Of a stretch of DNA of 64,000 bases, positions 43,636-52,656 are shown piece by piece. Positions within the stretch are counted from its first letter, which is position 1, and every line of letters begins with the position of its first letter. A program made the position numbers and the translations under genes. The stretch comes from Chitinophagaceae bacterium BSSC1 (GTDB lineage Bacteria; Bacteroidota; Bacteroidia; Chitinophagales; Chitinophagaceae), in assembly GCA_002256435.1 (NCBI GenBank), contig NKJC01000001.1, positions 1,956,179-2,020,178 of the forward strand, written 5' to 3'. The notes below the pieces were generated by a model that saw only the letters and a list, made by a program, of their open reading frames with translations, searched no databases and was not told the DNA's origin.

Positions 43636-44358
43636 ATGGATCGCAAATCCTTTTTACAAAATGCTGCCATTATTGGCGGTGCTACCATCTTGCCTGCAAA
43701 TAGTCTTTTTGCACAACATCTAAGCAGCAATGGCATTGATCAGTTAGCAGATGTGAATGGTATTTTTATACAACAACCACTCCCATATAGTAATAATTTT
43801 CTAGAACCATATATGGATGAAGAGACCATGCACTTGCATTATACTTTTCACCATGGTGGCGCTATGAAAGCAGCTAATCATGATGTAGAAATGATTAGGA
43901 AAGCTATGGATACCAATAATTTTGAAACAGTAGATTATTGGACCAAAAAACTTTCTTATCATTTTTCTAGTCATGTATTGCATAGTATATTTTGGACCAA
44001 TTTGACCAATAAGCAAATGAACCCTACCGGGGATTTGTTACTTGAAATTGAAAAAGGGTTTGGGTCTTTTGAAAAATTGAAGGCCTATATAGCCCAAACT
44101 TCTAAAAATGTAGATGGAGGTGGTTGGGGAATCTTGGGCTATCAACCTTATACACGCAGGCTTACGGTCTTGCAGTGTGAGAACCATGAGAAATTAACAC
44201 AGTGGGGCGTAATCCCCATTTTAGTGATTGATGTTTGGGAACACGCTTATTATTTGAAATATAAGAATAAAAGGGCGGAATTTGTAGATGCATTATTTAA
44301 AATCATTAGTTGGGAAAATGTTGCAGATAGACTTGCTTCTGCAAAGAAATTAGTATAG
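43636..44358 (+). CDS. Superoxide dismutase (Fe/Mn family) with a Tat-like leader
   Basis: The enzyme dismutates superoxide. Metal ligands are visible at His68 (HLHYTFHH), His116 (LHSIFW) and Asp199/His203 (IDVWEHAYY). The water-coordinating position appears to be His184 (ENHE), as in archaeal-type members, rather than the Gln of classic FeSOD or MnSOD. The first 27 residues (MDRKSFLQNAAIIGGATILPANSLFA) look like a twin-arginine leader with Arg-Lys instead of Arg-Arg, followed by a cleavage-like site, so it is probably periplasmic. Metal preference cannot be read from sequence. It is transcribed alone. Confidence 0.93.
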   Translation: MDRKSFLQNAAIIGGATILPANSLFAQHLSSNGIDQLADVNGIFIQQPLPYSNNFLEPYMDEETMHLHYTFHHGGAMKAANHDVEMIRKAMDTNNFETVDYWTKKLSYHFSSHVLHSIFWTNLTNKQMNPTGDLLLEIEKGFGSFEKLKAYIAQTSKNVDGGGWGILGYQPYTRRLTVLQCENHEKLTQWGVIPILVIDVWEHAYYLKYKNKRAEFVDALFKIISWENVADRLASAKKLV

Positions 44359-49619: not shown

Positions 49620-50267
49620 CTACAGCACCAACAGGTTCTGACAGATTAACGCGCTAAAGACGGTTTTGGTTTTGCCGTTAAGCTTTACGGCCATGGATTT
49701 ATCAAATTCCTGAATGGTGATGATCTCAATTTGTGATCCCAATTGCAGGTCAACTGAATTCAAATAGGTGAGAAAGGATGCGTCATTGTTTAAGACACCG
49801 CTGAGCTGGTATTTTTTGCCAGACTGGCAAAGACTTAAGGGGGTTGCTTTGAGTTGGGGCAGTCTTCCTTGACTATCTGGAATAGGTTCTCCGTGCGGGT
49901 CAAATTTGGGATAGCCCAGCATTTCATCTACGCGGTTAAAAAACAAGTCACTTTGTAAGTGTTCAATTTGTTCAGCTATATCGTGCACTTCTTCCCAACC
50001 CAAACCCATCACGTCTTTTAAGAACAATTCTGTTAAGCGATGTTTTCTTAAAATGAGCAATGCTTGTTTTCTTCCTTTCTCTGTTAATTCAATGGATTTG
50101 TACTTCTCGTATTTGATTAGTTTTTTCTCAGAAAGGTTTTTGACCATGCTATTGACCGTAGGCATTTTAATGTCTAGCAAAGCAGCAATCCTTTTTACAG
50201 AAATGCTTTCTCCGTTTTGAGATAGCCGGTGTAAGGCTTTCAGGTAATTTTCCTCGGTTAGGGTCAT
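49620..50267 (-). CDS. Metal-dependent transcriptional regulator, DtxR/MntR family
   Basis: The 215-residue protein has an N-terminal winged helix (VKRIAALLDIKMPTVNSMVKNLSEKKLI), a dimerisation domain with metal ligands His76, Glu80, His95, Glu99, Glu102 and His103 (HDIAEQIEHLQSD), and a C-terminal SH3/FeoA-like domain. Glu99 at the position of DtxR Cys102 is as in manganese-sensing MntR, but Asn7 replaces the usual Asp/Met. It is divergent from a TonB receptor and faces a palindromic operator. Mn versus Fe sensing is unresolved. Confidence 0.92.
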   Translation of the reverse strand: MTLTEENYLKALHRLSQNGESISVKRIAALLDIKMPTVNSMVKNLSEKKLIKYEKYKSIELTEKGRKQALLILRKHRLTELFLKDVMGLGWEEVHDIAEQIEHLQSDLFFNRVDEMLGYPKFDPHGEPIPDSQGRLPQLKATPLSLCQSGKKYQLSGVLNNDASFLTYLNSVDLQLGSQIEIITIQEFDKSMAVKLNGKTKTVFSALICQNLLVL

Positions 50268-50311
50268 GTTACAAATCTAAACTAATTGATTCTCAATAGG
50301 AAAATAAAAAA

Positions 50312-50329
50312 TGTTAGACTATTCTAACA
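50312..50329. promoter_or_regulatory. DtxR-type operator between the metal regulator and TonB receptor
   Basis: TGTTAGA-CTAT-TCTAACA has perfect 7-bp arms. The half sites TTAG/CTAA resemble the DtxR/IdeR box. It overlaps the -33 region of the receptor promoter (-7 box at 50337-50344) and lies 45 bases before the regulator start. Confidence 0.7.
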
Positions 50330-50336
50330 TTAATAT

Positions 50337-50344
50337 TATGTTTG
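50337..50344 (+). promoter_or_regulatory. -7 box of the TonB receptor promoter
   Basis: TATGTTTG matches TAnnTTTG and ends 14 bases before ATG 50359. The ATG at 50338 used by longer ORF models lies inside this box, which supports the later start. Confidence 0.55.
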
Positions 50345-50358
50345 TAGAACAATATTGT

Positions 50359-52656
50359 ATGAGATGCCGTTTTTACATAGGATTAATAGCTGTTTTTTTG
50401 CTTTCACAAGCAATACCAGCTTATGCCCAACAATCAAATATTCACTTAGATACAAGTATTAAAAAATCAGTTTCCAATAACATTGAAAAATTATTGGAAG
50501 GAGAATCAGATGAAGTGGTGGTAACAGGACTTACCAGGGCAGGATTTCAAAAAGAAAACCCTATTGCCATTCAGGCCATCTCTTCAAAAACCATTGACAG
50601 AACCATTGCTTCCAATATCATGGACCAACTAAGCCTCCATAGTCCAGGTTTATCAATGTTGAAAACAGGTCCCAATATTTCAAAACCTTTTATTCGCGGG
50701 TTGGGTTATCATAGGGTTTTAACCCTCTATGATGGTATTAGACAAGAGGGGCAACAATGGGGAGACGAACACGGTTTGGAAGTGGATGGATTTCAGATTC
50801 ATCGTGCTGAAATAATTAAGGGTCCCGCTAGTTTGCTTTTTGGTTCTGATGCCATTGCGGGAGTAGTGAGTTTGATTCCTTATTTACCCAAACTTGATCA
50901 GCAGCAGGTAGAAGGAAGAGTATTAATGGAATACCAGTCTAATAATGGGTTATGGGCTAGCGGTGTTAGAGTGGGACAACGGAGCAAACATTGGTTATGG
51001 CAGGGTTCGGCGTCTAAAAGAATAGCTGGCAATTACAGCAATGCCATTGACGGAAAAGTTTATTTAACGGGATTTCAAGAGAGCAATCTTGGATTTCAAA
51101 CCGGTTATTATTCTAAGAAAGGATTTAGTCTTTTAAGCGCTACATACTATGATAATTTGCAAGCCATTCCTGATGGTAGTAGGGACTCTGCCAGTAGGCA
51201 ATTTACCAAGCAAGTGTTGGATGGGCAGTGGGACGATGTTAAGAACAGACCCTTGGTTTCAGAAAGCGAATTAAATGGCTACGCACTATCGGGGTTGGTG
51301 CAAAGCATCAAGCATTATAGAGTCTATAGCAAACACCAATATCAATTTGGGAAAATAGATCTAGATGCATTGGTTGGGTTTCAACAAAATAACCGCAAAG
51401 AATTTACGCATCCTGCATGGCCTTATCAAGCAGGATTGTCCTTGCAACTCAATACTTTGAATTATGGTCTAAATTTGAATTTGCCCATTGCAAGCAGATC
51501 TGAAATTTCTTTTGGTGCCAATGGCATGTATCAACAAAACAAACATTTAAACGCCACTGATTTTCCCATTCCCAATTTTCAATTATGGGATATTGGTGTC
51601 TATATACACGGTAAATGGAATTGGCAAAAATGGCATGTTGCAGGTGGTTTAAGATGGGATCAAAGACAATTAAGAGCGGCAGATTTTTATACGGGTCACA
51701 ACCCGCAAAATGGATTTGAGCAGCAATATCATTTTCCAGATACAGCTGGGGCTGTATTGCAATTTCCAGCTTTTGAAAAAAGATTTAATGGATATTCTTT
51801 TGCACTTGGTGTAGCTTATAACATTAATACTAATTGGAGTCTGAAAGCCAATCTGTCAAGGGGTTATAGGGCACCTAGTATTACTGAATTGGCATCTAAT
51901 GGATTAGATCCAGGAGCCCATATACTTTATTTGGGAAACAGGGCTTTTGTACCTGAAACCAGTTTGCAACAAGACCTTGGGATTAGTTTAACAACGGCTC
52001 AATTACAATGGAGTCTTTCTTTGTTTCACAATCGCTTGGATCATTTTATTTACCTCACGCAACTACTTGATGCAAGTGGACTTCCACAAACAGATGCACA
52101 GGGCAATAAGACATTTCAATACCAACAAGCAGCTGCAAGATTGCTTGGATTTGAATCAGAAATTAAATGGCATCCGAGTTTTTTGCCGCAATGGAATATG
52201 ACTAGCTCAATTGCCTATGTGCATGGCGAAAACCTGCAAGAACGGTTTAACGGAAAAGGTAATCAGGGGCAATGGTTGCCATTGATTCCACCCATCACAT
52301 GGCAAGGGGCAATTGAGAAAAATTGGGTTACAAATATTCAGTGGATGCCCAATGTACAAGTGACAGCGTCTTGGGAATCTGCAGCAGCCCAAAACCGTTA
52401 TTTGGCACTCTATGCTACCGAGACCAGAACAGCTGCTTACACCTTATTCCATCTTGGATGGGGAACAAATTTCAATTTAGGGGGCAAAAAGCAATTGTCT
52501 ATTCAGTGTCAAATCAATAATCTGTTTAACCTGGCCTATCAGAACCATTTGAGCCGGTTAAAATACTTGGAATACTATCGGTCCGCAGCAAACGGCAGTT
52601 CAGGTATTTACAATATGGGAAGGAACGCAAGTATCAAATGTATTTTCAGTTTTTAA
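50359..52656 (+). CDS. TonB-dependent receptor, probable metal uptake
   Basis: The 765-residue outer-membrane receptor has a signal peptide (MRCRFYIGLIAVFLLSQAIPAYA), a plug domain with PFIRGLGYHRVLTLYDGIRQEGQQWGDEHG, and a barrel ending in the aromatic IKCIFSF signature. It lacks the CarboxypepD_reg domain of the receptor at 18916. Location opposite a DtxR/MntR regulator with an operator over its promoter suggests that it imports a metal or metal chelate. The start at 50359 is chosen because earlier ATGs fall within promoter elements. The ligand is unproven. Confidence 0.88.
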   Translation: MRCRFYIGLIAVFLLSQAIPAYAQQSNIHLDTSIKKSVSNNIEKLLEGESDEVVVTGLTRAGFQKENPIAIQAISSKTIDRTIASNIMDQLSLHSPGLSMLKTGPNISKPFIRGLGYHRVLTLYDGIRQEGQQWGDEHGLEVDGFQIHRAEIIKGPASLLFGSDAIAGVVSLIPYLPKLDQQQVEGRVLMEYQSNNGLWASGVRVGQRSKHWLWQGSASKRIAGNYSNAIDGKVYLTGFQESNLGFQTGYYSKKGFSLLSATYYDNLQAIPDGSRDSASRQFTKQVLDGQWDDVKNRPLVSESELNGYALSGLVQSIKHYRVYSKHQYQFGKIDLDALVGFQQNNRKEFTHPAWPYQAGLSLQLNTLNYGLNLNLPIASRSEISFGANGMYQQNKHLNATDFPIPNFQLWDIGVYIHGKWNWQKWHVAGGLRWDQRQLRAADFYTGHNPQNGFEQQYHFPDTAGAVLQFPAFEKRFNGYSFALGVAYNINTNWSLKANLSRGYRAPSITELASNGLDPGAHILYLGNRAFVPETSLQQDLGISLTTAQLQWSLSLFHNRLDHFIYLTQLLDASGLPQTDAQGNKTFQYQQAAARLLGFESEIKWHPSFLPQWNMTSSIAYVHGENLQERFNGKGNQGQWLPLIPPITWQGAIEKNWVTNIQWMPNVQVTASWESAAAQNRYLALYATETRTAAYTLFHLGWGTNFNLGGKKQLSIQCQINNLFNLAYQNHLSRLKYLEYYRSAANGSSGIYNMGRNASIKCIFSF

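Follow-up and report, generated by a model that had tools for sequence, protein, structure and literature searches.

The DNA analysed here, a 64,000-nucleotide stretch of the genome of Chitinophagaceae bacterium BSSC1 (the window), contains a 91-bp intergenic gap (50268-50358) that parts a regulator gene on the minus strand from a divergent TonB-dependent receptor gene on the plus strand. The regulator (49620-50267) is a DtxR/MntR-family metalloregulator of 215 aa, in which Pfam recognises a winged-helix domain, a metal/dimerisation domain and a C-terminal FeoA domain (PF01325, PF02742, PF04023), with scores of 45.8 bits for Fe_dep_repress (cut-off 26) and 98.9 bits for Fe_dep_repr_C (cut-off 27). 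Its solved relatives are Deinococcus MntR (5zr4), SloR and ScaR. The receptor (50359-52656), of 765 aa, is identified as TonB-dependent by its Plug (68.2 bits) and TonB_dep_Rec_b-barrel (125.5 bits) domains, and its best solved relative by sequence is ZnuD. The ATG at 50359, which opens a signal peptide, is its probable start; a longer frame opens at 50311, within the operator.

That operator is the palindrome TGTTAGACTATTCTAACA (50312-50329, without strand), a perfect 7-bp inverted repeat comprising the half-sites TGTTAGA and TCTAACA around the 4-bp spacer CTAT. It contains TTAG-N6-CTAA, the form of palindromic operator used by the DtxR/MntR family, and we designate it as an operator on the basis of its single exact genomic copy and its retention in relatives. 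The preliminary description had placed this palindrome between the two genes, over the −33 region of the receptor and upstream of its −7 box. The sequence bears this out on each point, with a gap of 7 bp between palindrome and −7 box. It had also proposed looking for the palindrome at other genes. Pattern searches, which together with protein searches made up the genome-wide work on this organism, returned one exact copy in the window and no second in the 4.34 Mb genome, and matches with two mismatches were no commoner than those of a reversed-pattern control. A wider regulon of GTTAG sites in this genome was considered and rejected, as the two-mismatch sites occur at control frequency and those inspected offered no plausible second target.

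Promoter geometry and conservation of the operator

A −33-like element, TTAG (50314-50317, plus strand), lies within the operator, 19 bp before the receptor −7 box TATGTTTG (50337-50344, plus strand), which fits the TAnnTTTG consensus. Transcription-start mapping in Flavobacterium puts the TAnnTTTG box at −12 to −5 (PMC9723704), and the same position applied here gives a receptor start site near 50349 and an operator at approximately −37 to −20. On the opposite strand, the −7 box assigned to the regulator, TAGATTTG (50272-50279, minus strand), ends 4 bp before the regulator ATG, a position that predicts a nearly leaderless regulator transcript. From the positions of the two −7 boxes, the operator covers the receptor promoter but stands upstream of the core promoter of the regulator.

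For comparison, eighty related regulator loci were taken from genome contigs and a set of 200 same-family genomes supplied more, with genes in the related loci called mechanically as longest open reading frames. Once identical regulators had been removed, 95 of the 131 related Bacteroidota regulators had TTAG-N6-CTAA in the 130 bp ahead of them, a raw count that is biased by the fetching of loci through their regulators and for which the receptor-led sample described below is fairer. In shuffled upstream sequence the mean was 0.475 and the maximum 3 (200 shuffles). A perfect 7-bp repeat in a 91-bp AT-rich gap is conceivable by itself as a chance inverted repeat, but the difference between 95 of 131 and 0.475 excludes a chance origin; together with the spacing and the covariation with the regulator present, this conservation has already refuted that explanation, to which we attach a negligible probability.

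The operator accompanies particular neighbours. It is present at 18 of 19 loci with a receptor of the window type (type A), at 35/41 with a second receptor type (B/C), and at all loci facing a ZIP transporter (6/6), a superoxide dismutase (SOD, 3/3) or a di-haem oxidoreductase (15/15), but at 2 of the 25 loci whose neighbours carry no assignment. At several of the receptor exceptions (L059, L065, L116, L071, L062) it lies farther from the regulator and near the receptor; L071 is the nineteenth type A locus, with the palindrome farther upstream. Loss of the palindrome from close relatives that keep both genes had been named as a way for the proposal to fail, and the closest of them (L051, L052, L053) all retain it. 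Beside receptors the consensus is (A/T)GTTAGAnTAnTCTAACA. In other lineages the same divergent position is held by an Nramp transporter, a ZIP transporter, an Fe-type SOD or another receptor family. The exact motif is present in 19 of the 200 family genomes, where four other exact sites without a metal-related neighbour are probably due to chance. The operator also stays with the receptor where the receptor is unlinked from the regulator: examples are the type B/C receptors of G029 (L131), G126 (L132, L149) and G102 (L142), all preceded by it, and the closest relative of the window regulator in the first two of these genomes has no adjoining receptor (L023, L025).

Spacing between the operator and the −7 box is restricted. 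On the target side, the −7 box begins 3 bp past the operator for 13/19 type A and 19/39 type B/C receptors, and likewise for Nramp (3/4), SOD (3/3) and ZIP (6/6) targets; the window and the two relatives nearest to it have 7 bp here instead, and the 3-bp spacing was not seen in the di-haem oxidoreductase group. That otherwise unrelated targets have this operator-promoter arrangement in common points to repression by covering of the promoter. The metal-dependent repression of the receptor promoter predicted in the preliminary description is thus supported by the phylum-wide operator, the restricted spacing, the replacement of the target by other metal-related genes and the retention at unlinked receptors, all of which suggest a repressor acting at this promoter.

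Regulator paralogues, mntH and the choice of metal

The putative metal ligands of the regulator are H76, E80, E99, E102 and H103, and N7 occupies the position of Asp8 in MntR, so that three of the four MntR ligand positions 8, 99, 102 and 103 are identical (E99, E102, H103) and position 8 is Asn. Residue counts over 136 sequences agree with Asn7, Glu99, Glu102 and His103, the first two of which are named in the preliminary description, but its view that Asn7 is unusual proved wrong. Asn is found in 132 of the 135 aligned sequences with a residue at this position and is the norm of the phylum, the only sequences with Asp being the outside references SloR, ScaR and Deinococcus MntR; as a pointer to an odd metal, Asn7 was therefore rejected. 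Position 99 is Glu throughout the relatives, as in MntR, ScaR and SloR. We call the protein MntR-like because it scores below the cut-offs of the NCBIfam MntR equivalogs (NF003025, 56.4 bits against 138; NF008273, 47.7 against 153; NF047407, 157.1 against 350).

The same genome encodes a second regulator paralogue, whose gene shares an operon with that of an Nramp transporter (mntR2-mntH, L019). Its operator, TTTAGATTTGTCTAAA, lies 31 bp ahead of the mntR2 start and differs from that of the receptor. Among regulator-Nramp operons, 11 of 14 have an operator, in all eleven of the TTTAG form. The two half-site types are matched by a difference in the recognition helix at residue 36, presumably the equivalent of DtxR Pro39, which is Pro in 53/61 GTTAG regulators and Ala in 12/13 TTTAG regulators; this residue is a possible basis of the half-site change. 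In a quick FastTree phylogeny the clade that holds the window regulator has a support of 0.993, and the TTTAG-type regulators were not recovered as a single clade.

Searches by receptor homology found four genomes (G089, of the same genus, G007, G010 and G027) in which a window-type receptor stands away from any regulator. The receptors of G089, G010 and G027 are preceded by TTTAG-type half-sites and that of G007 by ATTAG, and in G089, G007 and G010 a single DtxR-family protein was detected, within the mntR-mntH operon. The motif TTTAGRNNNNYCTAAA occurs exactly twice in the whole G089 genome (mntR-mntH and receptor) and twice in that of G027 (mntH and receptor); of the three sites in G010, one is at the mntR-mntH operon and one at the receptor. 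Because these sites stand at both mntH and the receptor, the two genes are predicted to belong to one regulon in these three relatives, and the operator type tracks whichever regulator is present. At two further loci (L073, L074) a type A receptor neighbours an Nramp gene on the same strand in one operon, and Nramp or ZIP takes the place of the receptor in other lineages. The SODs under the operator carry AAQHWNH, which we take to be the Fe-type signature; control of an Fe-type SOD in this way makes sense if low manganese is the signal.

Taken together, the regulon shared with mntH, the exchange of targets, the spacing and the operators of unlinked receptors make manganese the best-supported candidate for both signal and cargo. 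The preliminary description had left the metal uncertain. The comparative data now make manganese more likely. The argument has most force in relatives where control of the receptor falls to the mntH-linked regulator; the window regulator is a different paralogue.

A circuit that senses and imports iron, with an Fe2+-dependent regulator like DtxR or IdeR and a receptor for a haem or siderophore complex, would accord with the DtxR-type operator core, with the genes for a di-haem oxidoreductase and for Rieske and multihaem proteins that lie close to the operator in other lineages, and with the metal preference left open by Asn7. In NCBIfam, the receptor also comes nearest to models for haem/haemoglobin receptors, though none of these matches reaches its cut-off. 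We nevertheless consider iron unlikely: position 99 is Glu in the regulator and Cys in DtxR (PMC4805248), the predicted regulon in G089, G027 and G010 is common with mntH, an iron-repressed promoter driving an Fe-type SOD would be paradoxical, and a separate gene, assigned at the level of the Fur family, is present in the genome.

The receptor and its candidate metal pocket

We refer to the receptor as ZnuD-like because it scores 68 bits with the NCBIfam ZnuD model NF038289, for which the cut-off is 950. Foldseek also ranks ZnuD first, the query being a weak AlphaFold model (mean pLDDT 64, plug poor) built from a 12-row alignment and used for overall kinship alone; a reading of the pocket geometry from this model was dropped owing to the poorly modelled plug. 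Zinc in ZnuD is held by D99, H100, E340 and H499 (PMC4557270). A HMMER alignment places E137/H138 of the receptor on D99/H100 and D517 on H499, so that Asp stands in place of His at the last of these positions; E348 and H351 are candidates for the fourth ligand. E137 and H138 belong to a WGDEH motif (residues 134-138; 50758-50772, plus strand) that is invariant from W134 in all 16 regulator-linked receptors, and D517 to the loop NGLDPGAH (residues 514-521; 51898-51921, plus strand), which marks the operator-linked clade.

Within the wider receptor family, the LDPGAH loop (D517, H521) is found in 23 sequences, 22 of which have the operator, and His at position 517 in 38 sequences, none of which has it (0/38). 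The association holds in the receptor-led sample alone, with the operator at 10 of 11 LDPGAH receptors against 0/38 for His517. One of the His517 receptors is a paralogue in the window's own genome (L201, G000:C2:1936178-1938235; 37% identity) which is free of the operator and is likely a zinc receptor, offering a natural contrast. The exchange of His for Asp would fit a harder metal such as Mn2+.

These substitutions bear on the possibility that the regulator senses manganese but the receptor imports zinc, or a haem or siderophore complex needed in manganese shortage. In other bacteria, iron or zinc systems can be induced when manganese is limiting, and the receptor resembles ZnuD in both sequence and fold. 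On the other hand, the operator-linked clade has Asp in place of ZnuD His499 and the operator-free paralogue of the same genome keeps His, and some receptors of this type stand in operons with Nramp; a manganese sensor paired with another cargo seems to us improbable, and more so than the iron circuit considered above. A broader reading, which we put forward tentatively and at somewhat less than even chances, is that the clade defined by plug WGDEH and loop LDPGAH, hitherto unrecognised, serves Bacteroidota as a dedicated importer of manganese and descends from a ZnuD-like zinc receptor through the pocket change from His to Asp. In the window lineage the receptor would then be under a separate MntR-like regulator with the half-site GTTAG rather than TTTAG, parting outer-membrane from inner-membrane manganese control.

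A candidate manganese-uptake circuit and other genes at the operator

A manganese-uptake circuit at the window locus is credible, and we regard it as likely that a manganese-loaded MntR-like regulator represses a ZnuD-like, manganese-importing receptor through the palindrome, with derepression at low Mn2+. With sufficient cytoplasmic Mn2+, the metal-loaded dimer would sit on the GTTAGA-N4-TCTAAC palindrome, where it would span roughly −37 to −20 of the receptor promoter and block RNA polymerase. A drop in Mn2+ would release the apo-protein and allow the receptor to be made. The receptor would bring Mn2+ or a manganese complex over the outer membrane by way of a predicted carboxylate-rich pocket (E137, H138, D517 and perhaps H521), and MntH, encoded elsewhere in the genome under the second MntR-like paralogue and its different operator, would move Mn2+ across the inner membrane. 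What the comparison shows are the genes, the operator, the promoter geometry, their conservation and, in relatives, a predicted regulon that takes in mntH; the DNA binding, repression, metal identity and cargo of this circuit we infer. Against it, the Asp that serves as a ligand in characterised MntR proteins is Asn7 here, which could alter the metal preference. Neither protein scores high enough for the NCBIfam MntR or ZnuD equivalogs, and some lineages have haem and Fe-S proteins under this operator, which would suit iron as well.

A close parallel is known from Stenotrophomonas maltophilia, where MntR controls a TBDR-pTFP module and MntH, the MntR box overlaps the promoter, and manganese uptake across the outer membrane is proposed for the TBDR (PMC13217887, 2026). 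Both systems have MntR-type control of a TonB-dependent receptor with the operator on the promoter. The S. maltophilia receptor, however, has a CQNC plug and a thioredoxin-fold partner, whereas that of the window has WGDEH, no Cys pair in the plug stretch examined and no adjoining thioredoxin-fold gene; the window system also belongs to another phylum, uses another operator and has a dedicated second regulator. MnoT, as named in the same paper, is likewise a TonB-dependent receptor for which manganese import is proposed or shown; its regulation as described there differs, that description being the basis of the comparison.

Within Bacteroidota, PgMntR of Porphyromonas gingivalis is a manganese-responsive DtxR-family regulator whose target is the promoter of the manganese transporter FB2 (PMC4805248). 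PgMntR has Asp19/Cys108 and two FeoA domains, compared with Asn7/Glu99 and one FeoA domain here, and its target FB2 is an inner-membrane protein, whereas the window regulator faces an outer-membrane receptor. With SloR, ScaR, Deinococcus MntR and Bacillus MntR, the regulator shares the DtxR fold and Glu99/Glu102/His103, differing in Asn7 for Asp and in its receptor-type target. Neisseria ZnuD (PMC4557270), the best match of the receptor in sequence and fold, differs from it in having H499 where the receptor has D517, and the receptor is under a DtxR/MntR-kind operator. No report of an MntR-controlled receptor in Bacteroidota was found in the limited set of open-access papers searched, PgMntR and the S. 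maltophilia module being the nearest cases. Few outer-membrane manganese receptors are known, and with a concrete candidate receptor clade, an operator, a predicted regulon shared with mntH and residues to mutate, the outer-membrane entry of manganese in Bacteroidota becomes testable. The presence in a single genome of two regulators that use different operator half-sites is also a natural case for the study of regulator-DNA specificity.

Several further gene arrangements were seen at related loci. Type B/C receptors have a near-invariant NCNVCNTGD (CxxC) in the plug (L058, L059, L062, L076, L078, L080, L087, L089, L094, L100, L176 and others) and are followed at L076, L080, L089, L094 and L176 by a thioredoxin-fold gene (C-x-Y-C), a pairing that parallels the MntR-controlled CQNC module of Stenotrophomonas (PMC13217887). 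At L098, L100, L101, L104 and L106, a type B receptor is followed by a c-type multihaem cytochrome that contains TPRs and an MtrC/MtrF-like domain and perhaps mobilises metal from oxides.

A di-haem oxidoreductase lies opposite a regulator and operator of this kind in Cytophagales and in some Chitinophagaceae (L082, L095, L103, L112, L119, L129, L047, L048, L050, L151-L153, L156, L157). A Rieske protein usually comes next, as in several cases does a 408-aa protein without a Pfam match; a role of this group in metal redox chemistry would be a guess. The operator faces an iron/manganese SOD with AAQHWNH in Sinomicrobium and Tenacibaculum (L075, L084, L085) and a ZIP-family metal transporter in Cyclobacterium (L088, L097, L102, L108, L111, L115, L125), in both cases with the 3-bp spacing. 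The window itself encodes an SOD-like protein with a Tat-like N-terminus at 43636-44358, some 6 kb from the circuit, and the near matches to the operator within the window all lie elsewhere. Finally, many of the regulator's close relatives adjoin a gene for an ApbE-family flavin transferase, whether or not the receptor is present (L023, L026, L058, L059, L060, L063, L069).
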